From contig CAIQWJ010000026.1 of assembly GCA_903875575.1 (NCBI GenBank), forward strand, positions 1 through 64,000: a DNA stretch of 64,000 nt, in the 5' to 3' direction. The stretch is from an uncultured Acidobacteriia bacterium. Its GTDB lineage: Bacteria; Acidobacteriota; Terriglobia; Bryobacterales; Bryobacteraceae. The first letter of the stretch is position 1. Every line of letters starts with the position of its first letter. The notes under the pieces were generated by a model. It was not told the DNA's origin and searched no databases. It was given only the letters and a program-made list of their open reading frames with translations. This document shows, piece by piece, positions 1 to 17,665 of the stretch. The position numbers were made by a program, and so were the translations under genes.

Positions 1-195
1 CGGCTTTGACGGTCAATTCTGCCCGGGGCGCAACGGTTTCGTTCACCCGGCGGTTGCATCACCTGTCGGGCCGCAGAGTGTCCCGCATGCAGTGAATCGT
101 GCCCCGCCAGCCGAAGCAACCTTCTGATTCACAAGCATTTTACCAAATAAATTCAACAACATACACATTTCCCCAAATCCCCCCATGTTAGAACC
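1..195. other. left-edge stretch, no assignable gene
   Basis: No complete gene is visible. Two plus-strand frames stay open from the window edge: one from base 2 to a TGA at 125-127 (41 codons) and one from base 3 to a TGA about 30 codons in. Either could be the last part of a gene lying outside the window, but neither shows a motif I recognise. Bases 128-195 are AT-rich compared with the rest and probably carry the promoter of the next gene. Confidence 0.3.
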
Positions 196-201
196 TTGCA
201 T

Positions 202-711
202 ATGATCATCTCCGAAAAAAGACTAGCGGCCAACCGGCGCAACGCCCTCAAATCCCTCGGCCCCACCTCCCCCGCAGGCAAGGCCGCCTGCTCCAAAAAC
301 AGCCTCCGACACGGCATGCTCGCCAAATCCATCGTCCTCGAGGGCGAATCCCGCAGCGAATTCACCGCCCTCGTCAACTCCCTCCACGGCGAGTTCCAGC
401 CCGCTACCCCCGCCGAACTCCTCCTCGTCGAGAACATGGCCGCCTACCGTTGGCGTCTCATGCGCCTCTGGTCCATCGAAACCGCCGAAATCGAATACGA
501 AATCCGCCGCCAGACCGGCGAAGCCCTCACAGCCGACCCGCCCACCCGCGCCATGCTCGCCCTCCGCACCATCTCCAGCGAATCCCGCCGGCCCGACCTC
601 GCCTCCCGCTACGAGCACCGTCACCGCCAGAGCTACCACAAAGCCCTCGACGACCTCCTCCGCCTCCAGGAAATACGTAATTCCGCCACACGGTCCCACC
701 TAAACCCATGA
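202..711 (+). CDS. small hypothetical protein, RRNA-K-S/RHG type
   Basis: A 169-residue soluble protein without signal peptide or membrane segment. The N-terminus is basic and contains the pattern K-R-x-A-A-N-R-R-N-A-x-K-S-x-G-P followed by G-K-x-x-x-x-x-N-S-L-R-H-G. I remember this pattern from a set of uncharacterised proteins common in Acidobacteria and Planctomycetes, with no known function. The rest is rich in Arg, Glu and Leu and is probably helical. The ATG at 202 is chosen over a TTG at 196 because the conserved block begins just after it. It lies 242 bp upstream of terminase-like genes on the same strand, so a DNA-binding small-terminase role is possible but only inferred from position. 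Codon third positions are strongly C-biased, as in the next gene. Confidence 0.6.
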   Translation: MIISEKRLAANRRNALKSLGPTSPAGKAACSKNSLRHGMLAKSIVLEGESRSEFTALVNSLHGEFQPATPAELLLVENMAAYRWRLMRLWSIETAEIEYEIRRQTGEALTADPPTRAMLALRTISSESRRPDLASRYEHRHRQSYHKALDDLLRLQEIRNSATRSHLNP

Positions 712-734
712 AACCAAACGATCTCCACAAAAAG

Positions 735-790
735 GTGAACCCATTTTTAGGCCCTGCAAACCCATTTTAAGGGCCTGCAAACCCATTTTC
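735..790. repeat. short tandem repeat, unit with CCTGCAAACCCATTTT
   Basis: The block AACCCATTTT occurs three times, with GGCCCTGC or GGGCCTGC between the copies, at about 20-bp spacing. It lies directly before the first CTCTGTG-rich repeat, in the gap between the small hypothetical gene and the terminase ATPase gene. No coding function is visible. It may be a remnant of a mobile or slipped-strand repeat. Confidence 0.6.
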
Positions 791-834
791 TCTGTGCTCT
801 CTGTGGACCCTCTGTGGCCTCTGTGTGAAATCCG
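788..834. repeat. CTCTGTG-rich dispersed repeat, copy 1
   Basis: About 47 bp built from repeated TCTCTGTG/CTCTGTGG blocks and ending in GTGTGAAATCCG. A very similar element lies at 2373-2420, after the terminase nuclease gene, in the same orientation. The two copies bracket the terminase pair as imperfect direct repeats. I remember CTCTGTG-rich intergenic elements in several soil bacteria; their role is not known to me. Confidence 0.65.
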
Positions 835-953
835 GTCACACGAATCCCCAAAATATTTCTAATCCAACAAGCGCCGCATTATCTGCAACTTACGCCCATA
901 CCCCCAACCCAACACCCCACGTTTCTTACCACCCCGCATGTTATCCGTAAGTC

Positions 954-1769
954 ATGCCAGCCGATCTGACATTCACCGCAAAAGGCTGGCCGCACCACCA
1001 CACCCAGGCCACCCCCACGCCAGACCACTCCGACCCCGTAGCCTTCTCCCGCACCCGCCTCCACTTCCAGCCCGACCCCAAACAGACCACCGTCCTCCAG
1101 TCCACCGCCAACCGCGGCATCCTCAATTGCTCCCGCCAATGGGGCAAATCCACCGTCACCGCCGCCAAAGCCGTCCACCGCGCCTTCACCCAACCGGAAT
1201 CTCTCATCCTCGTCGCCACCCCCGGCGAACGCCAAAGCGCCGAATTCCTCCGCAAAGCCGCCGCCATGGTCCGCAAACTCAAACTCCCCGTCCGCGGCGA
1301 TGGCGATAACAGCCTCTCCCTCCAGTTCCCCAATGGCTCCCGCATCGTGGGCCTCCCCGGTACCGAGGCCACCGTCCGCGGCTTCTCCGCCGTCTCGCTC
1401 CTCATCATCGACGAAGCCTCCCGCGTGAAGGATGAGATGTACCAAAGCCTCCGCCCCATGCTCGCCGTCGGCGAAGGCGACCTCTGGCTCATGAGCACCC
1501 CCAACGGACAGCGCGGTTTCTTCTACGACGTCTGGCACTCTGCCGACCCCGATTGGTTCCGCGTCACCGTCCCCGCCACCGAGTGTTCCCGCATTTCCGC
1601 AAAATTCCTCGCAAGCGAGCGCCGCCAAATGCGCCCCGAAACCTTCGAACAGGAGTACATGTGCGCCTTCACCGTCTCCGATAGCGCCTTCTTCGATCCG
1701 CAACTGATTGACGACGCCATCGATCTCTCCATTCCGCAACTCCGTGTCCCGGGGTACAGGGGCCTCTGA
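954..1769 (+). CDS. phage terminase large-subunit-like ATPase
   Basis: A 271-residue protein with the ATPase half of a terminase large subunit, the motor that packs DNA into phage heads. A Walker A-like motif (CSRQWGKST, residues 59-67), a Walker B (LLIIDEAS, 149-156), a coupling motif (LMSTPNG, 179-185) and the F-x-Q-E-Y element near 231-235 are all present and in the usual order. The protein ends in the linker that normally leads into the nuclease domain, which here is the next gene, starting 2 nt after the TGA. The start is the ATG at 954; no strong ribosome site is visible. No portal, capsid or integrase genes are nearby, so this is not an ordinary prophage. Codon use is heavily C-ending, unlike the next gene. 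Confidence 0.8.
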   Translation: MPADLTFTAKGWPHHHTQATPTPDHSDPVAFSRTRLHFQPDPKQTTVLQSTANRGILNCSRQWGKSTVTAAKAVHRAFTQPESLILVATPGERQSAEFLRKAAAMVRKLKLPVRGDGDNSLSLQFPNGSRIVGLPGTEATVRGFSAVSLLIIDEASRVKDEMYQSLRPMLAVGEGDLWLMSTPNGQRGFFYDVWHSADPDWFRVTVPATECSRISAKFLASERRQMRPETFEQEYMCAFTVSDSAFFDPQLIDDAIDLSIPQLRVPGYRGL

Positions 1770-1770
1770 A

Positions 1771-2361
1771 ATGTTTTTCCTAGGACTGGACCTCGGCCAG
1801 AAACGCGATCCCTCGGCGCTGGCCATGGTGGAAAGAGTGGAAAAAATGCCTGCTTGGTTAGCCGTGCGTCACGTGGAACGGATGCCGCTGGGCCTGCCCT
1901 ATCCGGCGGTGGTCGCGCGCATCCGCGAAATCGTGCTGAGCAACGAGTTTCACGGCCAATGCACCCTCGCCGTGGATGCGACAGGAGTCGGTGCCCCGGT
2001 GGTCGACATGCTGCGCGCCGCCCGTCTGGGCTGCCCCATGACCGCTGTGACCATCACCGGTGGCGAAAAAGCCTCAGGCGACCAGTGGTCGGCCAACGCG
2101 TCAGTCCCGAAGCGCGACCTGATGGCGGAAATGCTGGTACTTCTGGAGCACCGCAAGCTGCGAATCGGCCAGATGCCGGAAGGAGCCCAACTGATCCGGG
2201 AACTAAAGGATATGCGAGCAAAACTAACCAGCCAGGGCACCGTCCGCATAGGAGCCGAAGGCACCGGAGAACACGACGATCTGGCCATGGCCCTGGCCTT
2301 AGCCTGCTGGCGGGCAAAAAGCCGTCCGCCCTGCGGAGAAATGACCCGAAGACTAATCTAA
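1771..2361 (+). CDS. terminase large-subunit-like nuclease domain
   Basis: A 196-residue protein with the RNase H-like nuclease half of a terminase large subunit. It begins GLDLG-x-x-x-D-P-S (Asp7), continues with AVDATGVG (Asp69) and ends with EHDDLAMALALA (Asp169/170), which match the acidic metal-binding positions of terminase nucleases. The ATG at 1771 follows the TGA of the ATPase gene with one base between (TGAAATG), consistent with translational coupling. The frame is open upstream to 1708 without a homologous sequence, so the later start is preferred. Most phage terminases carry both domains in one chain; this pair is either a natural split or an old frameshift at the domain border. 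Codon use changes at the junction from C-rich to mixed. Confidence 0.75.
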   Translation: MFFLGLDLGQKRDPSALAMVERVEKMPAWLAVRHVERMPLGLPYPAVVARIREIVLSNEFHGQCTLAVDATGVGAPVVDMLRAARLGCPMTAVTITGGEKASGDQWSANASVPKRDLMAEMLVLLEHRKLRIGQMPEGAQLIRELKDMRAKLTSQGTVRIGAEGTGEHDDLAMALALACWRAKSRPPCGEMTRRLI

Positions 2362-2372
2362 GCCCAAAAGTC

Positions 2373-2420
2373 TTCTCTGTGCTCTCTGTGGGCCTCCGTG
2401 ATCTCTGTGTTAAAATTCCG
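2373..2420. repeat. CTCTGTG-rich dispersed repeat, copy 2
   Basis: About 48 bp closely matching 788-834 (TTCTCTGTGCTCTCTGTGG, then CTCTGTGT and a terminal TTCCG). It lies between the terminase nuclease gene and lon, in the lon leader region, so it could be part of the lon 5-prime untranslated region. Same orientation as copy 1. Confidence 0.65.
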
Positions 2421-2468
2421 AAACCTTTAGCGAAACACACTCATCTTTTCTAACAGGAACACCATAAC

Positions 2469-4817
2469 ATGCCGACCACTCAAACTCTCCCGGTTGTCCC
2501 CATCAAGAACTCTGTCCTCTTCCCGGACCTCCTGATGCCCCTCTCCGTCGGCCGCCCCAGGTCCGTCGCCGCCATCCAGGCCGCTCTGGCGTCCGAAGCG
2601 AAGGAAATCCTCGTCGTCACCCAGCGCGATTCCTCCGTTGAGGCCCCCGGCGAGGCCGACCTCTTCCCCATGGCCACCAGGGCCGTCATCAAACGCCACA
2701 ACCGCAGCGGCGACAAGGTCGAAATCCTCGTCCTCGGCACCGAACGCGTTGCCATCACAGGCTTTACCGGCGAAGACTACCTCAGCGCCACCTACACCGT
2801 GGTCCCGGTCCCCGAAGATGAAATCGAAATAGACCCGGAACAGGAAGCCCTCCATCAGGAGGTCGTCGAACTCGCCACCAGCCTCCTCAAACAGGTCAAC
2901 GCTGCCCTGCCCGCCGAGTTCACCCGCGCCATCACCGGCCAGGAGGACCCCCTCCAGATGGTCTGGATGCTCGCCAGCGTCCTGAGCATGGATATCAACC
3001 TCGAATACTCGCTCCTGGCGGCCGAATCCCGCCTCGAAGCGCTTCGGCTGATCCACGGCCACATCTCCCATGAGCTCCAGATCCGCGAACTCCGGGGCAA
3101 AATCGCCTCCAAAGCCCAGAATGAGATCGGCAAGGAGCAAAAGGAGTACGTCCTCCGCCAGCAACTCCGCGCCATCCAGCAGGAACTCGGCGGCAAAGAG
3201 GGCGAATCCGAGCTCGATCTGCTCCGCGAACGCCTCAAAGCAGCCGACCTGCCCGACGAAGTCCGCAAAGAGGCCGATCGCGAACTCTCGCGCCTCGAAC
3301 GCCTCTCCACCCAGGCTCCCGACTACAACGTCGGCCGCACGTGGCTAGAACTGATCCTGGAATTACCATGGAAAACCGGCAGCGAGTCGGTCATCGACAT
3401 CCCGGCCGCCCGCCAAACCCTGGCCGACGACCATTACGGCCTGAAAGACGTCAAAGAGCGCATTCTCGAACACCTCGGCGTCCTGAAGCTGAACCCGGCC
3501 GCGAAAGCCCCGATCCTCTGCTTCGTCGGCCCTCCCGGCGTAGGCAAAACCTCGCTCGGTCAGTCCATCGCCCGCGCCCTCGGCCGCAAATTCGAGCGCC
3601 TGAGCCTCGGCGGCATGCACGATGAGGCCGAACTCCGCGGCCATCGCCGTACCTATATAGGTGCCATGGCCGGCCGCATCATCCAGGCTATCCGACGCGC
3701 CGGCGTCAATAACCCGGTCCTCATGCTGGACGAAATGGACAAGCTCGGTCGCGATTTTCGCGGCGACCCGGCCGCCGCCCTGCTCGAAGTTCTCGATCCC
3801 GAACAGAACAAGACGTTCCGCGACAACTATCTCGATCTCCCGTTCGATATCTCGAAGGTCTTCTTCGTGATGACGGCCAACACGCTCGACACTATCCCGC
3901 AGCCGCTGCTCGACCGCATGGAAATCGTGCGCCTGGCCGGCTACAGCGAAGAGGAGAAGGTAGAAATCGCCCGCCGCTACCAGCTTCCCAAGCAATTGAA
4001 GGAATCCGGTCTGCCGGAAGGCTCCTGCGTCCTGAGTGACGAGGCCCTGCGCCTGGTCATTTCGCGCTATACCCGCGAAGCGGGCGTTCGGCAACTCGAA
4101 CGCGCGATTGGCCGCATCATGCGGAAACTCGCCCTCAAAGTAGCCGAAGGCACCAACGGTCCCGTGGAAATCGGCAAGCAGGAACTGACAGATCTGCTGG
4201 GGCCGGAACGCTTCTCACCGGAAGAAGCCCGCAAGGACGTGCCCGCAGGTGTCGCGACAGGTCTGGCCTGGACCGAGGCCGGCGGCGACGTTCTCTATAT
4301 CGAAGGTGCCCTGCTGAAAGATGGCAAGGGCCTGCAGCTCACCGGCCAGCTCGGCGAGGTGATGCAGGAATCGGTCCGCATCGCGCAAAGCTATATCTGG
4401 TCGCACGCCAGCGAGTTTGGCATCGACCAGTCGCTGTTCCGTCGCTACGGCATCCACGTGCACGTCCCGGCGGGAGCGATCCCCAAGGATGGCCCCTCAG
4501 CAGGCGTCACCATGACGACGGCGCTGACCTCGCTCTACACCGGCCTGCCGGTGCGCAGCGATACCGCGATGACAGGTGAAGTAACCCTTTCGGGTCTGGT
4601 CCTCCCGGTAGGCGGGATCAAAGAGAAGATGCTGGCCGCGCGCCGACTCGGCATCCGGCGGGTAATCATCCCGAAGCAGAACGAAAAGGACCTGCGCGAT
4701 CTCCCCGAGGATGCCCGAGCCGACATGGAATTCATCCTGGCCGGACACGTGCATGAAGTATTACGTGCAGCAATCCCGGGCATCACCGAGCAGCACTTGT
4801 TACGAGTAGCCGCCTAA
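2469..4817 (+). CDS. lon: ATP-dependent Lon protease
   Basis: A 782-residue LonA-type cytoplasmic protease that unfolds and degrades damaged and regulatory proteins. The N-terminal substrate domain begins [18 protein letters not shown]. The AAA+ module has a Walker A GPPGVGKT (residues 354-361) and a Walker B around [10 protein letters not shown]. The protease domain has the catalytic Ser in DGPSAGVTM (Ser677) and the catalytic Lys in GGIKEKML (Lys718), close to the E. coli positions 679 and 722. Length is normal. An AGGAAC ribosome site precedes the ATG. The gene is followed by clpB 95 bp downstream on the same strand, so the pair may be co-expressed as a stress unit. No heat-shock operator such as CIRCE is visible upstream. 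Confidence 0.97.
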
Positions 4818-4859
4818 GCGCCGGGATCGCCGTTTTCGCCCGCGAAAGGTGCCTTTGGA

Positions 4860-4881
4860 GAGCCGCGACCGCAAGGGAGCG
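4860..4881. repeat. dispersed intergenic element, GAGCCGCGACCG core
   Basis: A 22-bp core reading GAGCCG-C-GACCG-C-AAGGGAGCG. It recurs in reverse orientation at 63334-63355 with two C/T differences. I remember this element as abundant between genes in Solibacter-type genomes. Here it sits in the lon-clpB gap, just upstream of the clpB ribosome site. Confidence 0.65.
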
Positions 4882-4912
4882 AACGATTTTCAACCGCGAG
4901 AGGAATGACCAA

Positions 4913-7513
4913 ATGGATATCAACCGTCTAACCGAAAAAACCCAGGAAGCCCTGCAAACCGCCCAAAGCGACGCCCTACGACACGGCAACCAACAGGTGG
5001 ACGTCGAACATCTCCTCGCCGCACTCCTCGCCCAGGAAGGAGGCCTCGCCGCCTCCATCCTGAAACGCGCCGGAGCCAACGTCGAAACCCTGGCCGCCAC
5101 CCTCGAGCAAGACCTGGAGCGACTGCCCAAGGTCACCGGCCCCACTGGCCCCCCGAGCCAGATCTACGTAACCGCCCGCCTCAACAAGCTCTTCACCCGA
5201 GCCGAAGACGAGGCCAAAAAGCTCAAAGACGACTTCATCTCCGTAGAGCACTTCCTCCTCGCCGCCGTCGAAGACTCGAAAGCCTTCAAAGACTTCGGTA
5301 TCACCCGGGACCGCCTCATGCAGGCCCTCCGCGAAGTCCGCGGCAGCCAGCGCGTCACCAGCAAAAACCCGGAAGGCACCTACGAAGCGCTAGAAAAGTA
5401 CGGTCGCGATCTCACGAAAGCCGCGGAAGCCGGCAAACTCGACCCCGTCATCGGCCGCGACGAAGAGATCCGCCGCGTCATCCAGGTCCTGTCCCGCCGC
5501 ACCAAAAACAATCCGGTGCTGATCGGCGAACCCGGCGTCGGCAAAACCGCCATCGTGGAAGGTCTCGCCCAGCGCATCGTGCGCGGCGACGTCACCGAAG
5601 GCCTCAAGGAAAAGAAGATCGTCTCCCTCGATATGGGCGCGCTGATCGCCGGCGCGAAGTTCCGCGGCGAATTCGAAGAGCGCCTGAAAGCCGTCCTCAA
5701 GGAAGTTCTCGATTCCAACGGCGAGATCATTCTCTTCATCGACGAACTCCACACCGTAGTTGGCGCAGGCAAAGCCGAAGGCTCCATGGATGCGGGCAAT
5801 CTGCTGAAGCCGATGCTGGCCCGTGGCGAACTGCACTGCATCGGTGCCACCACCCTCGATGAATACCGCAAGTACATCGAGAAAGACGCCGCCCTGGAGC
5901 GCCGCTTCCAGCCCGTCATGGTGGATCAACCCACGGTGGAAGACACCATCTCCATCCTGCGCGGCCTGAAGGATCGCTACGAACTGCACCATGGCGTGCG
6001 CATCAAAGACGCCGCACTGGTGAGCGCCGCGATACTCTCTGACCGCTACATCTCAGACCGTTTCCTGCCGGACAAGGCCATCGATCTGGTGGACGAATCC
6101 GCCGCCAAGCTGCGCGTGGAGATCGACTCCATGCCGGCCGAACTCGACGAAATCCTCCGCCGCACCATGCAGCTCGAAATCGAGCGCCAGGCGCTGAAGA
6201 AAGAGAAAGACGCCGCTTCAAAGGAGCGTCTGCACAAAATTGAAGTCGAGGTCGGCAACCTCCGCGCCGAAGGCGACGCACTCAAGGCTCGCTGGCAACT
6301 GGAGAAGGAATCCGTCCAGGGCCTGCGCACCCTCCGCGAGCAGATCGATCAAGTGAAAACCGAGATCGATCAGGCCGAGCGCGCCTATGATCTGAACCGC
6401 GCCGCCGAACTGAAATACGGTAAGATGCGCGAGCTCACCAGTAAACTGGCGGCAGCCGAATCCGTCGCGGCAAGCCCGAAGAAGCTGCTGAAAGAAGAAG
6501 TCGGCGAGGAAGATATCGCCGCCGTAGTCAGCCGCTGGACCGGCGTTCCGGTCTCTCGCCTCCTCGAAGGAGAGATGCAGAAGCTCATGCACCTCGAAGA
6601 AGAACTGCACAAGCGGGTGATCGGCCAGGACGAAGCAGTGACCGCTGTTTCTGAGGCGGTGATCCGGGCCCGCGCGGGCTTAAAAGATCCGAACCGCCCG
6701 ATCGGCAGCTTCATCTTCCTCGGGCCGACAGGCGTCGGCAAGACGGAACTTGCCCGCGCGCTGGCGCAGTACCTTTTCGATGACGAGCACAACATGGTGC
6801 GCATCGACATGTCCGAGTATCAGGAAAAGCACACCGTGGCGCGTCTGCTCGGAGCGCCTCCCGGCTACGTGGGCTTCGAAGAAGGCGGCCAGTTGACTGA
6901 GGCTGTGCGCCGCAAGCCCTACTCGGTGATCCTGTTCGACGAAATCGAAAAGGCCCACCCGGACATCTTCAACGTCATGCTCCAGATTCTGGACGACGGG
7001 CGTCTGACCGATGGCCAGGGCCGCACCGTGAACTTCAAGAACACGATCCTGATCATGACTTCCAACGTCGGCAGTCATCGGATTCTCGATTACAGGGGTG
7101 CCTTCGCCGGGCAGGCTTACGACAACATGAAGAATGCGGTGCTCGATGAACTGCGTGGCGGTTTCCGTCCCGAGTTCCTGAACCGCATCGACGAGATCAT
7201 CGTCTTCCACGCGCTCAACGAGAAGCACCTCAAGCAGATCGTCGAGATCCAGTTGGAAGGCCTCCGTGTTCGTCTGGCCGACCGCCACATTCTTCTCACG
7301 CTGACCGATGCGGCCCGTACGCATCTGGTGAAGACGGGTTACGACCCGGTCTACGGCGCGCGCCCGCTCAAACGGGCCATCCAGAAGCAGGTGGAAACCA
7401 GACTGGGCCGGATGATCATCGCCGGCAAGGTTCACGATGGCGAAGAGCTCGTCGTGGACTACGACAAAACGAAGGACGAACTGGTCTTCGAGCCAGCCCT
7501 GGTAGCCGCGTAA
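4913..7513 (+). CDS. clpB: ATP-dependent chaperone ClpB
   Basis: An 866-residue Hsp100 disaggregase that works with DnaK to dissolve protein aggregates in the cytoplasm. The order is typical: N-terminal Clp_N repeats (1-150), first AAA+ module with GEPGVGKT (205-212), a long charged coiled-coil middle domain (about 400-530, rich in E-x-x-x-L-K repeats) that separates ClpB from ClpA, and a second AAA+ module with GPTGVGKT (about 604-611) and a C-terminal small domain with [17 protein letters not shown] lies 9 nt before the ATG. It follows lon at 95 bp and the leader holds a dispersed GAGCCG element. No sign of truncation. Confidence 0.97.
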
Positions 7514-7558
7514 CTGGTTACTCGATTGCACGAGTAGCACCGCAAGAAGGAGGCTTCT

Positions 7559-7834
7559 ATGCCAGCATCTGTGATGTTACTCGTTGGCCTGACAGTAGTC
7601 ATGGCGGTCCTCGGCGTGTATCGGTGGATTGTGGCTCACCGCGAGGATGACTGTATTCACATTGACGACGATCCGAGCGGCGAACTGCTCAGGAATCAAC
7701 AGGAAACGACGCAGTCACTGCGGAAGATCGATCGCGCCGGTATCGCGCTGACCGTGGTCACTGCTATCTACGGCGTGGCTCTCATGGTGTTCTACCTCTA
7801 CTCGGGGCTGAACTCCTACCATCCGCCCGCATAA
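7559..7834 (+). CDS. small two-span membrane protein
   Basis: A 91-residue protein of unknown function. Residues about 5-25 and 63-83 are hydrophobic and should form two membrane helices, joined by an acidic loop (DDCIHIDDDPSGE) and a Gln/Arg-rich stretch. A strong GAAGGAGG ribosome site precedes the ATG. It lies 45 bp after clpB on the same strand and may be read from the clpB transcript. No family is recognised. Confidence 0.6.
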   Translation: MPASVMLLVGLTVVMAVLGVYRWIVAHREDDCIHIDDDPSGELLRNQQETTQSLRKIDRAGIALTVVTAIYGVALMVFYLYSGLNSYHPPA

Positions 7835-7894
7835 GCGCCAGTTCGCGCAGCGTTGGGCGCTCTATGGCGTAGGCGTCCGATACAATCGGACGCT

Positions 7895-9430
7895 ATGAGA
7901 GCCTTTTGGTCTGTCGTTCTGACGCTGCTGTGTTGTAGCCTGGGGGCGGAGGCGCAGCTTCGGGTGGAGGTCTCGTTTCCGGCGTCATTGCACGCTGGGG
8001 CGATCACCGGTCGCGTGCTGGTTTCGCTGAACCCCGGCGGCCAGTTGTTCGGGGCCGATGTCAGCGGTTTGCGCCCCGATGCGGTCGCAGTGGTGGATGG
8101 CAGCGCCAACGGCTTCCCGCTGGCAGCGTTGAAGGATCTGCCAGCCGGGGACTATACGGTGAAGGCGGTGATTTGCCCGTACACGGAGTTTCACCGTGCC
8201 GATGGGCATGTGATCTGGGCGCATAACGATCAGTGGGAAGGGCAGAATCCCACAGGGTCGCCGGGCAACCTGTTGAGCGAGGCGCAAACGGTCCACGTGG
8301 ATCCGTCGCGGCCTTCCACTCTGCGGATGACGATGACGCAGGTGCAACCGCCGGTGGTTATGCCGGCGGACACGGCGTTTGTGAAGCACGTGAAGATACA
8401 GAGCCCGATGCTCTCGAAGTTCTGGGGGCAGCCGATCTACATCGGTGCGACCGTATTGCTGCCCAGGGATTACGAGCAGCACCCGGAGCAGAAGTACCCG
8501 GCTGTTTACCAGCAGAACCACTTCAGCCTGGGGGCTCCGTTCGGGTTTAACGGCAACACCGCAGTGGCCGGGTTTGCGAAGGACTGGACGGCGGATGATT
8601 TTCCGCGTGCGATTGGAGTGACGTTTCAGCATCCGACGGTTTACTACGACGATTCGTACGCGGCGAATTCGGCGAACAACGGCCCATACGGCGACGCTCT
8701 GACGCAGGAGCTGATCCCGTATCTGGAGAGTCATTTCCGGATGATTCCGGAGGCGAAGTCGCGACTGGTGACGGGCGGTTCGACCGGCGGATGGGAAGCG
8801 CTGGCGCTTCAGGTTTACTATCCGGACGTGTTCGGTGGGACGTGGGTGTTTTGTCCGGATTCGATCGACTTCAGTCGGTATCTGATTCTGGATATCTACA
8901 ACGACGAGAACGCCTTCGTCCGGCCAGGTGTGAAGGCGGGCGCAGGGATGGGTTTAGCAAGCGATGAAAGGCCGATGCTGCGGAATCCGGAAGGCCAGAC
9001 GACACGGACGTTGCGGGAGCAGAGTCAGCAGGAAGATGCAGTGGGCGGTAAGAGCCGCTCGGGCGGCCAGTTGGCGGGGTGGGATGCGGTGTTCGACCCG
9101 GTTGGGGACGACGGGTTTCCGAAGCCCCTGTGGGATCACAAGACCGGGAAGATCGATAAGGAAGTCGTGCAGTATATGAAAGACCACGGGTACGATCTGG
9201 CGAAGTACCTGGAGGCTCACTGGACGGAACTGGCACCGAAGCTGACGGGGAAGCTGCATTTCTACGTGGGCGACATGGATAACTGGTTTGCAAATCTGGC
9301 CGTCTACCGGATGGAGACGCTGCTGGGGAAACTCGGGGCGCAGGCGACGTTTACTTACGGGGCGAGGCAAGGACACATGTGGTATCCGATGAGCCAGTCG
9401 GAACTGGTACGGATGATGGTGGCGAAGTAG
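7895..9430 (+). CDS. secreted esterase-like alpha/beta hydrolase
   Basis: A 511-residue exported protein. The ATG at 7895 gives a clean signal peptide (MRAFWSVVLTLLCCSLGAEA); the TTG at 7853 would add a charged leader. The N-terminal part is an Ig-like accessory region; the C-terminal part resembles putative esterases (esterase D type). The nucleophile elbow is GGSTGGW near residue 293, and a late His in GARQGHMWYP fits the catalytic triad. The likely substrate is an ester on plant or microbial polymers, but this is not fixed by sequence. The 3-prime end overlaps the convergent pyroglutamyl peptidase gene by 80 bp. Confidence 0.8.
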   Translation: MRAFWSVVLTLLCCSLGAEAQLRVEVSFPASLHAGAITGRVLVSLNPGGQLFGADVSGLRPDAVAVVDGSANGFPLAALKDLPAGDYTVKAVICPYTEFHRADGHVIWAHNDQWEGQNPTGSPGNLLSEAQTVHVDPSRPSTLRMTMTQVQPPVVMPADTAFVKHVKIQSPMLSKFWGQPIYIGATVLLPRDYEQHPEQKYPAVYQQNHFSLGAPFGFNGNTAVAGFAKDWTADDFPRAIGVTFQHPTVYYDDSYAANSANNGPYGDALTQELIPYLESHFRMIPEAKSRLVTGGSTGGWEALALQVYYPDVFGGTWVFCPDSIDFSRYLILDIYNDENAFVRPGVKAGAGMGLASDERPMLRNPEGQTTRTLREQSQQEDAVGGKSRSGGQLAGWDAVFDPVGDDGFPKPLWDHKTGKIDKEVVQYMKDHGYDLAKYLEAHWTELAPKLTGKLHFYVGDMDNWFANLAVYRMETLLGKLGAQATFTYGARQGHMWYPMSQSELVRMMVAK

Positions 9431-9980: not shown

Positions 9981-11641
9981 CCGGCCGCTCTCATGTAGGT
10001 GGTGTAGGTCTCGCGCTGCACCTGATAAAACGGTCGCAGATCCGGTGAATCCACCTCCACCATCATCAGCGGGCCGTTCATCAGCGCGAACAGGTCCGGC
10101 TGGCTCTTGTCAATCGGTTCGCGCCGCAACGTGAACGGCAGGGTGAGTTCGATGCGGTCGCCCTTCTTCCATTGCCTTCGAATGGTGGCCCAGCCGCCGG
10201 GCAACGCGCCGACAACGGTCTTCCGCCCGTTGACCAGAACTTCCGGCTGTTTCTCCAGCCATGAAGGGATGCGCAGGTGCACCCCGAATGACTGCGCCTT
10301 CTCCGGCTCCACCCGCAGCACGATGCGCTCAGAAGCTGGATAGTCCGTCTCCTGCACCAGGCGGACGCCATTGGCATTGAGTTCACTGCCAGCGTAGAGA
10401 TTGACGCAGATGTCGCGCCCGTCTCCGAAGTAGACGCCGAGCGGATAGTCCGCTACGGATTGCAGCAACGTCCCCGCGCAGCAGGGCCATTTCTGTTTGT
10501 AGTAGCCCTTGTGCGCGCGGGCCTGGTAGTCGGAATAGTAGAAGTAGCCGCCGTCATCGTCAGGGTCGAGCGCTCCCAGAATCGTGTTGAACAGGAGCCG
10601 TTCGAGGCCATCGCCGTACTTTGACTCGCCGCTGAAGCTGGTGAGATAGCGGGCCAGCTTCTGGTGCGCGTAGAAACAGCATGGGGTTTCGAAGTGATCC
10701 CGTGTTGCAGTGAGACTCGCCGCGAGTTCGCCGGAATGGGGCTTCACAAACATCTCCTGCGGCGCCCAGGCACCGGAGGCGAACTGCTGTCCATCGGCCA
10801 GCATGTCCCAGGCATTGCGAATGGCGCGCAGATACTTCGGGTCGCCGAGCACTTCATACGCCTTCGCAGCGGAACTCAGCGCGATGATGTGGCTGTAGCC
10901 GTGCTTGCTTGGCAGGACGTTTTCGCCGCGGGCCAGCGGATCGAAGTACTCATCGAGCAGGTAGCGTTTTGCGAGATCGAGGTACCGGCTGTCGCCGGTC
11001 AGTGCGTAGGTATTGAAGAGGTTTTCAGGCAGTACGAAGGGCTCGTCATACGGTGGATTCTTCACGCCGATTCGGTCGAAGGTGTGGTCGGGGATGGTGC
11101 GAGTGGCCGCTTCGATGACTCTCGGCAGGAGTCCGCGGGCCGAATCCACTCCGGCTAGATTTGCGGCATCGAGCAGGCCGATCTCGTACTTATCGAGGAT
11201 GTAGCAGGCCCACGTGGAAGCCTTCGCGCTGGCATATGGTTTGCCATCGCGTTCGAAGGTTTCTCCGTAACCGGCAACGAGCCGCCGTACTTTGGCCGCG
11301 GCTTCCGTATCACCAGTGCACGCGTGGAGGCGCGACAACCCGGAGATGAATTGCCCCAGGAGATGCCCAGGCACGAAACCTTCGCCGTCATACCAGCCGC
11401 CCATATCGAGACCCGGCGCGACCATGCCTGCGCGCTGCCGGTAGACCTTCAGCAGGCGGTCCTCATCCAGTTTGAGAAAGTGGGCCTGAGTGCGCCGGTA
11501 CATCTCCGCCATGGGGCCCGTGGTCAGCCGGACTTGCGAGTAGTCGAACTCACGAAGGACGCGCCGGCCAGCAGTTGTCGCGGCATTGGCGGTGACCGCG
11601 CAAGCCGCCGCTGTGCCGAGAAAAGTACGACGCGTGAGCAT
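9977..11641 (-). CDS. GH127-type beta-L-arabinofuranosidase (DUF1680)
   Basis: A 554-residue exported glycosidase-like protein. The N-terminus LTRRTFLGTAAACAVTANA is a twin-arginine signal. The body matches the DUF1680/GH127 alpha-alpha barrel: GWYDGEGFVPGHLLGQFISG, HGYSHIIALS, and the cysteine motifs TPCCFYAHQKL and WPCCAGTL, which correspond to the zinc/nucleophile Cys region of arabinofuranosidases. It would release L-arabinose units from plant cell-wall glycans or glycoproteins. The upstream gene ends 33 bp away and pcp overlaps its stop by 4 bp, so it lies in the middle of a four-gene operon. Substrate is inferred from family only. Confidence 0.85.
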   Translation of the reverse strand: MLTRRTFLGTAAACAVTANAATTAGRRVLREFDYSQVRLTTGPMAEMYRRTQAHFLKLDEDRLLKVYRQRAGMVAPGLDMGGWYDGEGFVPGHLLGQFISGLSRLHACTGDTEAAAKVRRLVAGYGETFERDGKPYASAKASTWACYILDKYEIGLLDAANLAGVDSARGLLPRVIEAATRTIPDHTFDRIGVKNPPYDEPFVLPENLFNTYALTGDSRYLDLAKRYLLDEYFDPLARGENVLPSKHGYSHIIALSSAAKAYEVLGDPKYLRAIRNAWDMLADGQQFASGAWAPQEMFVKPHSGELAASLTATRDHFETPCCFYAHQKLARYLTSFSGESKYGDGLERLLFNTILGALDPDDDGGYFYYSDYQARAHKGYYKQKWPCCAGTLLQSVADYPLGVYFGDGRDICVNLYAGSELNANGVRLVQETDYPASERIVLRVEPEKAQSFGVHLRIPSWLEKQPEVLVNGRKTVVGALPGGWATIRRQWKKGDRIELTLPFTLRREPIDKSQPDLFALMNGPLMMVEVDSPDLRPFYQVQRETYTTYMRAAG

Positions 11642-11674
11642 GTATTACATTATCCGCGCTTATCGCGGCCGAGG

Positions 11675-13903
11675 CTATTCGATGACGAGCACTTCGTGAT
11701 CGAGCACAGAAGGAATCGTTACCCGCGCCCAGCCGTTGGCGATGACTGGCGTCAGGACTTTGCCCGACACCAACAGCCTGGCGCTGCGGCCGTGAACACC
11801 CGCAGGCAGACGAACGCCGAACCTCAGGGGCCCGGAAGGAACCATGTCGTCATCTGTGACCGGCATCCGTCCAGTCGCGGTGAGATTGACAACATGGGCT
11901 ATCACGCGGCCGGGCTGCGTGTACAGATTGCAATCGAACAAGCCCCTGCCATCCAGTTGCAGTGGGATGGCACCATTTGCAGCCCAGCGTACAAGGTTCG
12001 CGAGCAGAGTCGCATGATCGGGCAGGTTGTTGGTGGAGTAGAGGCGATCGATCTCAGCCGGCAAAAATGCCACGCGATCTTTCAGTATGAGACCAGGAAT
12101 GTCCGTCTTGGGTTGACGCATCCAGGACGTTTCCGGCGGCAGCACAGGGAAAGGCCGGATGAAAGTCAGCGGGACCGCCACGCCGCTATCGAGCTTCAGA
12201 GGCAATAGCGTGCCGCCAAATGGCAGGATATCGGTTTCCGCGAAACCCTTGAGCACGGGATGGCGCTGGCCGGTTTCATGAGGCTCGTCACCGACTTCCG
12301 GTCCCCATACATCTGCTCGCAGTTCCGGTGTAAGGCGCAGATAGGAATGGAGCGTCTGAGTGGTGCTGGGGCGTTCGTTTCCTGCGGTGCCCATGAAGTG
12401 AGCGCCGAAAAGATCCGCCAGGCCATAGTCGCTGCGGGCATCGCCGAACTCGCTAAAGAGACTGGTAACGCCGGTCGCGATGAGCGCGCCACCCTTGCTC
12501 ACGAAGTTCCGCACGGCGGCGCATTGCTCGTCCGACATGGCACCGATCGCGGGGAGGATCAGGACTTTGAGGTTCGCGCCGTCACGCTCGATGTGGTCGA
12601 TATGAATCGGGACGTAAGGGATGCGCGCGCGAACCAGGCTGGCGGCAAAACCGCGATAGGGCGCGTCCACTAATTCGGCGGCGCGGTCCTGACCGTAGAA
12701 ATCCGTGTTGCGTTGCGACCAAACGAGCCCTACCGTTGCCAGCGGCCGACGATTCAGCAGATACCTCTGGTTCGTCTCATGCCACTTCATGACCGGCTCA
12801 GCGGTGTGGTACATGCGGCGATCCTCATGATAGGCACCGATGTGGTGCCACCAGGGCGTGATGCCACCTGCCAGACCTTCAAGCATCCACATGCGGGCTT
12901 CCGCAACCGGCTTGCTGGCTACACGGAAGGTGCCGCGGCCCGCCTGATACATGGCCATGCTTTCCGGCGCGAGCTTGTCCCAGCCCAGAACGCCGTGCAC
13001 CAGCTTGCCGGTATCGGCGTTTTCTTCAAAGCCTGCCGTGCCTCGCGACTGATGATCCAGGAAGACCATCTCGGCGCGGCCGAAGATCGCTTTGCAATCC
13101 CGGAATGAACTGCTCTGAGAAGTGACGGAACCGCTGTTCATGCCAAACCACAGGCAGTCCGGACCGCCAGCCGACCTGGTCGCGCGATTGTTCAGATCCC
13201 AGATTTCGATGCGCCGCGCATAATTCCAGTCGATCCAGCGCCGGTAGACGGGATCTTTCCAGTCAGGCTTTGCGGGCAGCGCCGAGCCAGCTTTGTCGCG
13301 GAACTTACGAGCGCAGTTCTCGCAGCAGCAAATGCTGTCGCGCCCCAGACCGCTCCAGCTGTTGTCGGCGAACCCATCGGGGTGGCTTCGGTCGATGATC
13401 TCGGTCAGGACGGCGGGAAGGTATTCGTCGTAATAAGGACTGTTGACGCAGGTGACGTATTTGTCCGCGGCGCGATACGGAGTGCCGTTGCTGGTGCGCG
13501 CAAACCAATCGGGATGCGCGGCGAAGAAGTCTTCCCCCGCCCTGTTGGAGTCCATACGGGCGATCACGGTCAGGCCATCGTCATGCGCGGCTTTCGCGAG
13601 TTCGCCGTATAAATCGCGGTCGCCCAGAAATTCAGCGCGGTGCTGGAGGGGAAATTTACTGGGGTAATACGCGACGATGCCGCCGGCGTTGATGATGACT
13701 CCCTGAACGCGGGTGCGTTTCCAGAAGCCGCGCCACCAAGCGACGTCGTAGCGCACGGGGTCCATCTCTGTGATGTTGGTCTGGCCCCAGCGGTAAGTGC
13801 GGCGGTACCACGGTTGGGTGGTGGCCGCGATGAGCGGACGAGGCGTGGCCGCGAGGCTGGCCGCGGTAACGGCTATAAAGTCGCGTCTGGAAGTCAGAGG
13901 CAT
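11675..13903 (-). CDS. exported GHL6/GH42M-type glycoside hydrolase-like protein
   Basis: A 742-residue protein with a Tat-type leader (PLTSRRDFIAVTAASLAA). The N-terminal half resembles the hypothetical glycosyl hydrolase 6 (GHL6) TIM-barrel family: GVIINAGGIVAYYPSKFP, HDDGLTVIARMD and a Cys cluster ICCCENCARKF. The central part (NRRPLATVGLVWSQRN to GGALIATG) resembles the beta-galactosidase trimerisation domain, and a beta-rich tail follows. It may act on fucose- or galactose-type glycans. The ATG at 13903 is preferred to the TTG at 13915 since it starts the Tat leader directly; both lie at the very end of the preceding amidohydrolase gene. Part of the operon with GH127 and pcp. Confidence 0.72.
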   Translation of the reverse strand: MPLTSRRDFIAVTAASLAATPRPLIAATTQPWYRRTYRWGQTNITEMDPVRYDVAWWRGFWKRTRVQGVIINAGGIVAYYPSKFPLQHRAEFLGDRDLYGELAKAAHDDGLTVIARMDSNRAGEDFFAAHPDWFARTSNGTPYRAADKYVTCVNSPYYDEYLPAVLTEIIDRSHPDGFADNSWSGLGRDSICCCENCARKFRDKAGSALPAKPDWKDPVYRRWIDWNYARRIEIWDLNNRATRSAGGPDCLWFGMNSGSVTSQSSSFRDCKAIFGRAEMVFLDHQSRGTAGFEENADTGKLVHGVLGWDKLAPESMAMYQAGRGTFRVASKPVAEARMWMLEGLAGGITPWWHHIGAYHEDRRMYHTAEPVMKWHETNQRYLLNRRPLATVGLVWSQRNTDFYGQDRAAELVDAPYRGFAASLVRARIPYVPIHIDHIERDGANLKVLILPAIGAMSDEQCAAVRNFVSKGGALIATGVTSLFSEFGDARSDYGLADLFGAHFMGTAGNERPSTTQTLHSYLRLTPELRADVWGPEVGDEPHETGQRHPVLKGFAETDILPFGGTLLPLKLDSGVAVPLTFIRPFPVLPPETSWMRQPKTDIPGLILKDRVAFLPAEIDRLYSTNNLPDHATLLANLVRWAANGAIPLQLDGRGLFDCNLYTQPGRVIAHVVNLTATGRMPVTDDDMVPSGPLRFGVRLPAGVHGRSARLLVSGKVLTPVIANGWARVTIPSVLDHEVLVIE

Positions 13904-13915
13904 CGTGTTCGCCAA

Positions 13916-14860
13916 CTACGCGGGCTGAGTTTTGTCGCGACGTACCCACTTGTAGGCCTTGACGGAGTTCTTCCAGAAATACTTTTCGGCAGCGGCCTGG
14001 CCTTTTGACATGAAGTATTCGCGGACTATGGCCAGTTCCACTGGATACTCCGCCCACTGATCACTATTAGGCCAGTCGCTGCCGTAGAGCAAACGGTTCT
14101 CGCCGAAGATATCCCATAGCTCGTCGATGTGGGACTTATAGAAGGCGGGGTCTCGCGGGACATTCCCGTTGACGCGCTGGACCACGCCGGAGACTTTGAC
14201 GAAGATCTGCGGGCGTTTGCCCAGTTCCCTGAGGTCGTTCTGGTAAGCGCGGAGTGCGGCGGGATCGGTGGGCTTTTCAAGTCTCGGCAGGTGATCCAGC
14301 ACGACGCGGAGCGACGGTACTTTGTCGGTGAGGCGAACAATGTCCGCGATTAGTCGGGGATCGGGATTCGCGGTATCCATCACGAGGTCGGCATCTGCCA
14401 GTCGTTTGATGCCTGCGATGAAGACCGGGTTATCGATTGCCGACGTGAAATTCCGATTCCACAGATTTCCGTAACGAATGCCGCGGAACAAGGGATTCTT
14501 ATGCAGTTTTTCCAGTTGTGACGGGAACTCAGGTTTCTCGGGTTCCATATTGCCGATGGTGCCGACGAGAATCTTGTCTTTCGCGGCGACGTCCAGCACC
14601 CACTGGTTATCGTCGAACCAGGGACTGGCCTCCACTTCGATGGCTCCCACAACACCGAGCGGTACGGCGATCTTTCGAAAGCGATCCGGGAGCGCGGTTT
14701 TATAGAGAACTGGATCGGCCTTGTCCGGCCAGGGCACACCTTGCGGCCGCGTGGGATCGAAAAGATGGATATGGCAGTCGATGATCGGGATGGCAGAGGC
14801 TGCATCCAGGTGTCCAATTGCTATAGCGCTGGTTCCTGCGAGAAATGTCCGTCGATTCAC
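13916..14860 (-). CDS. Tat-exported amidohydrolase (lactonase-like)
   Basis: A 314-residue Amidohydro_2 family protein with a twin-arginine leader (MNRRTFLAGTSAIAIG). The metal-binding start motif is IDCHIHLFDP; other family marks are LDHLPRLEKP and LYGSDWPNSD near the end. Close relatives hydrolyse sugar lactones such as L-fuconolactone or L-rhamnonolactone, which would fit the following glycosidase genes. It is the first gene of the minus-strand operon amidohydrolase-GHL6-GH127-pcp, and faces the M16 peptidase gene divergently across about 96 bp. The exact substrate cannot be read from sequence. Confidence 0.82.
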   Translation of the reverse strand: MNRRTFLAGTSAIAIGHLDAASAIPIIDCHIHLFDPTRPQGVPWPDKADPVLYKTALPDRFRKIAVPLGVVGAIEVEASPWFDDNQWVLDVAAKDKILVGTIGNMEPEKPEFPSQLEKLHKNPLFRGIRYGNLWNRNFTSAIDNPVFIAGIKRLADADLVMDTANPDPRLIADIVRLTDKVPSLRVVLDHLPRLEKPTDPAALRAYQNDLRELGKRPQIFVKVSGVVQRVNGNVPRDPAFYKSHIDELWDIFGENRLLYGSDWPNSDQWAEYPVELAIVREYFMSKGQAAAEKYFWKNSVKAYKWVRRDKTQPA

Positions 14861-14956
14861 AGCAGCTATTTATATCACCAATGGATCGCAGCCTGTGTCC
14901 GGCGGTGCTAGATTGAAGGGTATTACGCGATGGAACCATCGCGCCGGAGGTGCTCT

Positions 14957-17665
14957 TTGAAACGTCACTTACTCCTGTTCGGGTTGGCTGCCATCACTGC
15001 GTTACCAGGGCTCTCCCAGCTTCCTCAGGGAGTTACGCGGGTGACCTGCGTGGAAGGCCTCACGGAATATCGGCTTGCCAACGGCCTTCGCGCCGTAGTT
15101 TTCTCCGACACCTCGAAGACCACTATCACGGTCAACATCACCTATCTGGCCGGTTCGCGTCAGGAAAACTACGGTGAATCCGGCATGGCGCACCTGATTG
15201 AACACTTGATGTCCTTCGGTTCTCCGAAATACCCCGATGCCAAGCGCGAGCAGAATGAGCACGGCGCGACGCGCAATGCCAGCACGAGCTTTGACCGCAC
15301 CAACTACTACGAGACGTTTCCGGCGAGCGATGCCAATCTGGACTGGGCGCTGGATCTGGAAGCCGACCGCATGCTGAACGCGCTGGTCACGAAGGAAAGC
15401 CTGGCAAGTCAGATGTCGGTTGTGCGCAACGAATATGAATCCGGCGAAAACAGCCCGGCGCGGGTCCTGCAGGAGCGCGTTTATTCCACCGCTTTCCTCT
15501 GGCACAACTACGGCCGCAGCACGATTGGCTCCCGCTCGGATATTGAGAATGTGCCGATCGAACGGCTTCAGGAGTTCTATAAGCGTTACTACCGGCCGGA
15601 CAACGCCGTCATCGTGATTGCCGGCAAACTGGATGAGGCTGCAACCGTGCGACTGCTCGCGGCGAAGTTCAGTGCCGTCCGTGCTCCTTCTGCACTAATC
15701 CCTGCGACCTACACGGCGGAACCCGTGCAGGATGGCGAACGCTTTGTCGCACTGCGACGCGCGGGAGATGTTCAACTCGCCGTGGCTGGTTATCATGTCC
15801 CGGCTACGTCGCATCCCGACAATGCACTCATGGAAGTTCTCAACGCGGTGCTGACTTCCGGCCCTTCGAGCCGCCTGCAAAAGGCACTGGTGGAAACGAA
15901 AAAGGCCTCCAGCGTGGGTGGAAATGTATCGCAACTGCGTGAGCCCGGGCTTGCGACCTTCAGCGCAACTGTGCGCAAAGATGCGTCGCTCGATGTTGCT
16001 AAGGACGCTATGCTCGCTGTTCTCGATGGTCTGGCCGCCAACCCGGTCACCCCCGCCGAGGTGGAACGGGCCAAAGCGCAACTTCTCTCTGCCACCGATC
16101 TGCAACTGGCTAATTCCACGTCGCTGGCCATGTCTCTCACCGAGTGGTCCGCCGCCGGCGACTGGCGGCTGGTCTTCCTGTTCCGGGATCGTATCCGGCA
16201 GGCCACCGCCGCCGAGGTACAGCGCGTTGCGCTTCTCTATCTGAAGCCATCCAATCGGACTCTGGGAATCTTCCAGCCCGAAGATAATCTGCAGCGCTCT
16301 GAGATTCCCGCGGCTCCCGATCCGGCTGCGATTCTTCACGACTACAAGGGAGATCCCGCGCTCGCGGCCGGGGAGGTATTCGAACTCTCCACAGCCAACA
16401 TCGAAAGCCGGCTGGTTCGCTCGCGTCTGCCAAACGGCATGAGAGTCGCACTGCTGCCGAAGAAGAATCGCGGCGGCGCGGTGAGCGCGGTGATTCGCCT
16501 CAACTACGGGGACACTGCTTCGCTGAAAGACACTTTCGCTGCGTCCACTCTGGCGCGCGGGATTCTGATGCGCGGCACGAGCGCACACACCAAACAGCAG
16601 CTTCAGGATGAGATGACACGTTTGAAGCTGCAGATGACGGTAGCGGGCGGTGCAGGCATAACGACCGTCACGCTGCAGACCGTGGGCGCGAACCTGGAGC
16701 CGGCACTGCGACTGGCTGCGGAAGTTCTGCGGCAACCCGCTTTCCCTGCAGACGAGTTTGAGCAGTTACGTCTGGCGCAACTCGCTTCGCTCGAAGCATC
16801 GCGCACCGAGCCTACCACTGTTGCACCGAATGAACTGGCACGTCTGCTGAATCCGTACCCGGCGACGGACCCGCGCTATGTGCCTACAGCCGATGAAGCG
16901 GCGGCAGCGCTGAAGGCGGCCACCCTCGACGCGGCTAAACAGTTTTACAACGACTTCTATGGAGCTTCCAACGGTGAAGTGGTCATCGCAGGAGACATGG
17001 ATAAGGACTCCATCGGCAAGCTGGCGCTGGAACTGTTCGGCAACTGGCGCAGTCCGCGGTCTTATGCGGAGTCGCGGCGTGCGTATCGAAAGACGCCGGT
17101 AGTGCAGCCCGTGATTACGCTGAAAGACAAGGCGAATGCTTCCGTTGTGGCCGGGGAATTGTGGCCGGTAGGCGAAACGCACCCGGACTTCCCTGCCCTG
17201 GTGCTGGCGAATTACATGCTGGGTGGGCACTCGACGTCGCGACTGTACCTGCGTATCCGCACGCAGGACGGGTACAGTTACGGGGTGTCATCCACACTGG
17301 CGGCCGATTCTCAGGAGAATTGGGCGCAGTGGAGCATGGCGGCGATCACTAATCCGTTGAATGCGCCGAAGGTGGTGCAGGATCTGCGCGAGGAAATCGC
17401 ACGCGTGCTGAAAGATGGTTTTGCCGCAGGTGAAGTGGCTGCCGCCCGCAAGGGCTGGGCGGATGCGCGGCAGGTGCAGCGGGCGCAGGATTCGGCGTTA
17501 GCGGCACGAATTGTGCTGGATGAACATAACGGGCGCACGATGCAGTTCGATGCCGACCTGGAAGCTAAAGTGGCGGCGCTGACACCGGAGGCTGTCAACG
17601 CTGCATTCCGGCGCTATATGGATCCGGCCAATCTCACGGTCATCCAGGCCGGCGATTTGAAGTAG
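14957..17665 (+). CDS. secreted M16 family zinc peptidase
   Basis: A 902-residue pitrilysin/insulinase-type peptidase made of two M16 modules. The active site is in the first: HLIEHLMSFG carries the inverted HxxEH zinc motif and the third ligand is the Glu in NEYESGENSP. The second module (from about residue 480) lacks the HxxEH motif, as is normal. The TTG at 14957 is chosen because GGAGG lies 6 nt upstream and it begins a proper signal peptide (MKRHLLLFGLAAITALPGLS); the ATG at 14930 would add nine residues, several of them charged, ahead of it. It likely degrades peptides in the periplasm or outside the cell. A type B carboxylesterase gene follows 37 bp later. Confidence 0.9.
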   Translation: MKRHLLLFGLAAITALPGLSQLPQGVTRVTCVEGLTEYRLANGLRAVVFSDTSKTTITVNITYLAGSRQENYGESGMAHLIEHLMSFGSPKYPDAKREQNEHGATRNASTSFDRTNYYETFPASDANLDWALDLEADRMLNALVTKESLASQMSVVRNEYESGENSPARVLQERVYSTAFLWHNYGRSTIGSRSDIENVPIERLQEFYKRYYRPDNAVIVIAGKLDEAATVRLLAAKFSAVRAPSALIPATYTAEPVQDGERFVALRRAGDVQLAVAGYHVPATSHPDNALMEVLNAVLTSGPSSRLQKALVETKKASSVGGNVSQLREPGLATFSATVRKDASLDVAKDAMLAVLDGLAANPVTPAEVERAKAQLLSATDLQLANSTSLAMSLTEWSAAGDWRLVFLFRDRIRQATAAEVQRVALLYLKPSNRTLGIFQPEDNLQRSEIPAAPDPAAILHDYKGDPALAAGEVFELSTANIESRLVRSRLPNGMRVALLPKKNRGGAVSAVIRLNYGDTASLKDTFAASTLARGILMRGTSAHTKQQLQDEMTRLKLQMTVAGGAGITTVTLQTVGANLEPALRLAAEVLRQPAFPADEFEQLRLAQLASLEASRTEPTTVAPNELARLLNPYPATDPRYVPTADEAAAALKAATLDAAKQFYNDFYGASNGEVVIAGDMDKDSIGKLALELFGNWRSPRSYAESRRAYRKTPVVQPVITLKDKANASVVAGELWPVGETHPDFPALVLANYMLGGHSTSRLYLRIRTQDGYSYGVSSTLAADSQENWAQWSMAAITNPLNAPKVVQDLREEIARVLKDGFAAGEVAAARKGWADARQVQRAQDSALAARIVLDEHNGRTMQFDADLEAKVAALTPEAVNAAFRRYMDPANLTVIQAGDLK

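Follow-up and report, generated by a model that had tools for sequence, protein, structure and literature searches.

A conserved split terminase, related to terminases of satellite-type elements and small plasmids, forms a dispersed cassette in Bryobacteraceae

Terminases are generally taken to be virion-packaging machines and are used as phage markers. Their large subunit (TerL), of the type represented by T4 gp17 and phage G20c, carries a motor ATPase and a nuclease in a single chain. Among phage satellites, excerpts of PMC10690885 describe TerS genes in some SaPIs and, in cf-PICIs, genes for both terminase subunits as well as for the capsid. Terminases also occur on small Salinibacter plasmids, with no mention of a split in the excerpts of PMC6060240. 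Across excerpts from the literature on split, orphan, domesticated and derived terminases (PMC5900883, PMC10690885, PMC11921389, PMC13376191, PMC6060240), we did not find the arrangement described below, which may still be published. The safest statement of our results is that this arrangement is a conserved split terminase, kin to the terminases of satellites and plasmids, that now exists as a dispersed cassette.

The locus lies near the start of the window, by which we mean the whole 64,000-nucleotide stretch of DNA analysed, from an uncultured member of the Bryobacteraceae (GCA_903875575.1, contig CAIQWJ010000026.1, hereafter C26). Two separate, intact genes, joined as TGA-A-ATG, encode an ATPase of 271 aa and a nuclease of 196 aa (Table 1). 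The ATPase matched Pfam Terminase_6N (E 1.6e-12), PHROG 7579 (E 6e-55) and T4 gp17 structures (E 5e-8). The nuclease matched PHROG 27743 (E 2.7e-34) and, by sequence, the TerL nuclease of phage G20c (E 3e-4), which was also the best PDB match of its AlphaFold2 model (pLDDT 83; E 1.3e-9); its match to Pfam Terminase_6C reached only E 9.5e-4, weaker than the family cut-off. The two PHROGs, families of 239 and 233 positions, respectively, match the halves separately, such that the split is already implicit in a database, in which PHROG 27743 is listed as being of unknown function. In alignments of 18 rows per half, ATPase residues S60-S66 (SRQWGKS), D153-E154-A155 and S181-T182-P183 and nuclease residues D7, D69 and D169/D170 were invariant. 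The first gene thus has the Walker A and B and coupling motifs of a TerL ATPase, and the second is predicted, from its sequence and model, to be an RNase H-like nuclease with the catalytic acidic residues in place. These results bear out a preliminary description of the locus as an orphan split terminase that keeps its key motifs. The pair shares with TerL of the T4 gp17 and G20c type the Walker A, DEA and STP motifs, the RNase-H fold and the catalytic Asp, but differs in that it consists of two genes, is multicopy and has no portal, capsid or TerS gene recognised alongside.

Table 1 Features at the 5' end of the window, in window coordinates.
Feature	Position	Strand	Basis
Insertion-sequence end (rve-type transposase) at the contig start, directly adjoining leader LE1	1..127	+	Repeat copies in own genome
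Leader LE1 of small gene: TTCAC, AT-rich block, CATGTTA, -10-like by eye	128..201	+	Model R1
Gene (SML) for a small, all-helical protein with motif NRRNAxKSxGPxTPxGK; member of a multicopy family	202..711	+	Genome matches, AF2
Tail segment common to other leader units	657..790	+	Comparison of units
CTCTGTG repeat tract, between small gene and ATPase leader	790..828	+	Sequence
Leader LE2 of ATPase gene: GTCAC, AAATATTT, GCATGTTA	835..953	+	Model R2 match 832-950, this copy in model
Terminase large subunit, ATPase half	954..1769	+	Pfam, PHROG, T4 gp17 structure matches, alignment
Nuclease half of TerL, with RNase H fold and conserved catalytic Asp	1771..2361	+	PHROG, structure match, alignment
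Second CTCTGTG tract, same orientation, 3' of nuclease	2375..2412	+	Sequence
lon gene preceded by its promoter region (the latter by eye)	2419..4817	+	Homology with relatives resumes here

At E ≤ 1e-5, ten large neighbour ORFs at 2.4-25 kb matched no PHROG of the structural, packaging or integration classes, in agreement with the earlier impression, and by the same PHROG searches of these neighbours the pair lacks the adjacent capsid, portal, tail or integrase gene of a prophage; the window beyond them was inspected as an ORF list only. The integrase, replication and packaging genes of a PICI-like satellite were likewise not recognised at the window, nor was a TerS beside the pair. The preliminary description had allowed for a full prophage elsewhere in the genome, and here our genome-wide search covered a single capsid family, HK97 (PF05065), which had no match in the own genome (98% complete) and was found in 4 of 14 control genomes. 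Rfam gave no match within window positions 1-8000, and no tRNA was found in the window or in seven loci. Upstream of lon, two relatives (G005 and G009) carry different sequence. We also observed that CTCTGTG tracts in the same orientation bracket the terminase pair; as general element ends they were rejected, the exact heptamer being rare at other loci.

We assessed the split state in related genomes, as had been proposed, using 113 loci (the window, L035, L036, L070-L120 and L129-L187, with 26 short loci, L041-L066, left out). These gave 100 distinct ATPase matches, fragments included and halves of one copy on two contigs counted separately, of which 27 lacked the ATPase end or the DNA downstream and were therefore left unscored. 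Among the 73 scorable matches, 51 were split, 10 were fused (no stop between the halves, with internal restart possible) and 12 had no nuclease match of 100 aa within 1 kb downstream. Two of these 12 (L166 and L167, genome G003) have a nuclease upstream, and in L173 the match is too short to count. The possibility that relatives carry one fused chain, broken only here, is contradicted by these counts, and a frameshift or assembly error was rejected since the split state is common to 51 of the 73. Comparison of dN/dS between halves, also suggested at the outset, gave values of 0.044 (ATPase) and 0.054 (nuclease) in the closest orthologue pair, from G014 and G017, and of 0.141 and 0.162 between G017 and G018. 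Both halves are therefore under alike, strong purifying selection in two orthologue pairs, and the cassette of leader, ATPase and nuclease is kept by purifying selection. Single copies are damaged: some terminase matches are truncated or have internal stops, the nuclease of the C97 copy is shortened, with ~30 residues missing, and that of L139 is interrupted by ~80 bp.

The own genome holds three terminase copies, on C26 (the window), C64 and C97, the latter two being ~70% identical and both split. At E ≤ 0.001, 39 of 101 relatives matched, fragments at contig ends included, and the weakest of these matches are probably ordinary phage terminases. Matches within the window's genus range from 0 to 19 per genome, again including fragments, with the maximum in G018, where one match is a distant fused terminase at 30% identity. 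Two possibilities that had been considered, a gene-transfer agent and a motor domesticated as a single copy, do not fit such a range within one genus; the single structural cluster with terminase expected of a gene-transfer agent was not found, the terminase being multicopy and the HK97 capsid absent. With up to nineteen scattered copies or fragments in one relative and no virus recognised around the window pair, the motor genes are suggestive of a pared-down selfish element of an unfamiliar kind.

Leader, ATPase and nuclease behave together as one unit of ~1.5-1.7 kb. Contig breaks are frequent within the ATPase gene, where the two contigs of four pairs have exactly 141 bp in common, which we read as the assembler's overlap between near-identical copies. 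Because the contigs of each pair share exactly these 141 bp, we treat the left halves L145/L146 and the right halves L138/L139 of G018 as two copies, each at a locus of its own, although left and right remain unjoined in the assembly. In this clearest case, the left halves, at 95% identity, cease to resemble each other upstream of GTCAC, which lies ~100 bp ahead of a likely ATPase start, and the right halves, also 95% identical, are unlike from ~20 bp past the nuclease stop. Between G017 (listed with 7% contamination) and G014, the pair L251/L172 is 99.0% identical over 1039 bp, with right flanks that differ directly past the stop, and pieces of an orthologous locus in the same genomes are 91-94% identical. 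Leaders differ between L185 and L186 of G015 at 94% ATPase identity, which indicates an edge inside the unit, such that exchange within the unit occurs. With respect to an insertion sequence or transposon, ends are visible in some pairs, but neither terminal inverted repeats nor target-site duplications were seen by eye, and there was no clean empty site at lon or at the C44 copy of G018, with one homologous flank each time. At C44, the sequence of relatives departs from that of G018 near the nuclease side and the other flank is unmatched. Sharp edges and high identity could also be explained by gene conversion between old copies, and gene conversion plus a putative mobiliser would give these patterns as well. 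REP-like palindromes were noted by eye near the G018 copies.

In a phylum-wide draw of 396 genomes, seven matched at E ≤ 1e-15, own genome included; the six others, at 45-50% identity, come from outside the family. There, too, ATPase and nuclease are separate genes, and the ATPase is accompanied by one to four nucleases, up to three of them downstream and, in L332 and L336, one also upstream. The L331 nuclease is on the opposite strand at a distance of 2.5 kb, and the ATPase of L336 is itself divided between two frames. Multiple nucleases beside one ATPase might form mixed assemblies. Several nucleases per ATPase were seen in L326, L328-L330 and L332-L336, some with a first catalytic motif that appears degenerate by eye. 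Neighbouring genes vary by member and include DUF3631/DUF3987 primase-type genes, Mom or a DNA methylase, and TerS-like genes (phrog_4102, E 6.6e-37 and 6.3e-10); in G335 and G482 a tyrosine integrase is found near the pair, together with a primase-type gene. We term these relatives satellite-like; no capsid gene was recognised among the genes searched. As in PICIs and cf-PICIs, TerS, TerL and primase-type genes are combined, with an integrase in two genomes; unlike in those satellites, TerL is split, no capsid is recognised and the unit in the window has no integrase or primase alongside. The Bryobacteraceae pair as a whole stands without integrase, primase or recognisable TerS.

The same organisation was found on plasmids. 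ATPase and nuclease are overlapping separate genes on pSR11 (11.2 kb) and pSR14 (14.9 kb) of Salinibacter ruber and on a 16.3 kb plasmid of Streptomyces virginiae, all circular, in the range of 11-16 kb and with no capsid annotated; on a Rhodococcus plasmid the pair is fused. pSR11 and pSR14 thus carry the same split pair, but differ from the chromosomal unit in being plasmids with primase, ParA and several unannotated genes. Among phage proteins, the ATPase matched best, at ~40% identity, the fused terminases of the Thermus/Meiothermus phages Riverbug and MMP17, in which TerL is annotated at 1248-1254 bp with a portal or head-morphogenesis gene next door, and eight relatives of the ATPase in IMG/VR viral contigs reached at most 35% identity. 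On a tree of 55 chosen rows, the Bryobacteraceae rows form one clade (SH-aLRT 99.4) and the fused Thermus/Meiothermus phage terminases fall among the split outside rows. The split or fused state requires six changes on this tree, on which either state could have come first; two long-branched plasmid rows are unsurely placed. Another tree had 93 rows, a simpler model and four long viral rows.

The best reading of these comparisons is that the pair represents a two-gene TerL, with motor ATPase and RNase-H nuclease predicted to be separate chains, of a lineage that elsewhere resides in satellite-type elements and small plasmids. We regard it as an even call whether this satellite-type split terminase has been reduced in Bryobacteraceae to a dispersed cassette with a packaging-related action involving a co-resident phage. 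The cassette would then descend from a satellite-type element by reduction, and the two chains would assemble in trans into a working motor-nuclease that may act on the capsids or DNA of a co-resident helper phage. The outcome could be that cassette-bearing DNA is packaged, or that the phage's own packaging is disturbed; the neighbouring small protein might also have a part. By analogy, a packaging-related role with a helper phage appears most likely, since relatives without recognised capsids keep the same pair. The arrangement shows that motor and nuclease can exist as separate genes in records of three phyla (Acidobacteriota, Rhodothermota and Actinomycetota), and it draws attention to satellites and plasmids equipped with a complete terminase yet with no recognised capsid. 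It makes testable both the action of motor and nuclease in trans and the terminase as a driver of mobility. Prophage counts could be inflated by a split terminase that is conserved and multicopy but comes without recognised capsid genes.

A leader similar to that of the ATPase heads many small-protein genes, including the gene directly upstream in the window. The leader motif, GTCAC or ATCAC followed by an AT block, was chosen after copies had been seen and sought within 300 bp upstream; it was present at 38 of 84 terminase copies, thus not at all of them, compared to 5 of 199 control windows. It was also seen by eye at the C64 copy. At E ≤ 1, model R1 found 34 places in the own genome and model R2 33, training sequences included, with all ten sequences used to train R1 counted among its 34. 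By eye, 31 of 56 leader places precede a small-protein ORF (some partial) and two precede a terminase ATPase (C26 and C97), the remainder lying before no recognised complete gene or at a contig end. In some units of the own genome without a complete small gene (e.g., L269, L272 and L278), the leader is combined with a shared segment of ~145 bp, and these repeats are apparently remnants of small-protein units. The small-protein family has 28 matches in the own genome and is present in 57 of 101 relatives. In family f1, whose genomes are non-independent, the terminase (E ≤ 1e-15) occurs in 27 of 61 genomes and the small protein in all 27, and in 51 of the 61. AlphaFold2 predicts an all-helical protein (pLDDT 88) that matched no PDB or viral fold at E < 0.001. 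Of 18 aligned members, 4 carry a SEC-C motif, and the window protein had no Pfam match. The small protein was considered as a TerS and rejected, being without sequence or fold support.

The insertion-sequence end at the start of the window occurs at ten places in the own genome, and at six of them (on C26, C85, C37, C40, C67 and C41) it abuts a leader also found by R1, a model built partly from those same leaders. One copy (L197) continues into an rve_3 ORF (E 1e-13), and we take the element to be IS3/IS481-like. The leader seems to be a preferred site of insertion. REP/RAYT-type repeats are likewise many short dispersed units with a conserved head and insertion sequences at them; in contrast to those repeats, the proteins associated here are a terminase or the small protein.

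Several other explanations were weighed. In the one that survives best, though we consider it unlikely, the nuclease, aided by the ATPase, would cut leader sites and the cassette would be copied into or beside them as a mobile or homing unit; equally unlikely in our view is the corresponding picture of the terminase as a transposon-like machine that would recognise the GTCAC-headed leader, of which there are dozens of copies, and multiply its own and the small-protein cassettes in the chromosome. A nuclease plus a separate ATPase is also the equipment of Mu, Tn7 and IS21, and a mobile cassette would be consistent with a similar leader heading ATPase units, those of the small protein and those that have no complete gene. 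Left edges are sharp in L145/L146, at GTCAC, and at five G018 loci, where the edge is the TCAC ahead of the small gene; 3' content varies, with the ATPase alone or with the nuclease. The lack of visible inverted repeats and target duplications argues against this, as do small-protein genes that are numerous in genomes without a terminase match (at least 17 in G002, 15 in G013 and 6 in G004).

Ranking just below it, and rather improbable, is a phage-interference gene, a stand-alone terminase that poisons or diverts the packaging of invading phages, its copies forming a defence repertoire. Purifying selection and the multiplicity of copies agree with this, and the C97 copy adjoins genes (L036, ~10700-16000) that resemble a BREX-type defence region. 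However, no PADLOC model for known anti-phage defence matched the three window proteins at E ≤ 1, and the window copy adjoins lon and clpB. More doubtful again is a separate mobile system whose putative recombinase, acting in trans, would recognise the leader, with the terminase as cargo. The leader is found before other ORFs and before no complete gene, and the rve-type insertion sequence that abuts it at 6 of 10 places indicates that it attracts other enzymes, but invariant catalytic residues together with dN/dS of ~0.05 mean that such cargo must itself have a function. A decayed phage relic split by mutation, as also raised in the preliminary description, is very improbable: truncated or interrupted copies such as the L139 and C97 nucleases would fit, but for the family as a whole it is contradicted by the strong and similar constraint on both halves, by the split state in 51 of 73 scorable matches and by the lack of recognised phage genes nearby.

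The codon bias had been reported to change at the junction of the two genes, and we confirmed that third-position C drops from 0.68 in the ATPase to 0.38 in the nuclease, while third-position G rises from 0.14 to 0.33. Third-position G+T of the two halves was strongly correlated across 71 pairs (r = 0.95), and the window pair, at 0.21 for the ATPase and 0.41 for the nuclease, is by eye among the larger mismatches; values for other large ORFs in the window were mostly 0.34-0.72. The shift in the window is part of a wider composition oddity of the dispersed genes. Copies of the terminase ATPase fall into a group with strongly C/A-rich third positions and one in which G and T prevail there, with 4 of 93 within 0.4-0.6 G+T; the small gene is C/A-rich at third positions in 18 of 18. 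Where the small gene is codirectional with the terminase, 22 terminases were low and none high in G+T, compared to 1 low and 11 high where it is opposite, related copies being non-independent in both counts. Third positions in the dispersed terminase and small-protein genes are thus strand-polar, falling into two opposite classes that track the orientation of the small gene, as seen in the window pair and in copies L035-L187.
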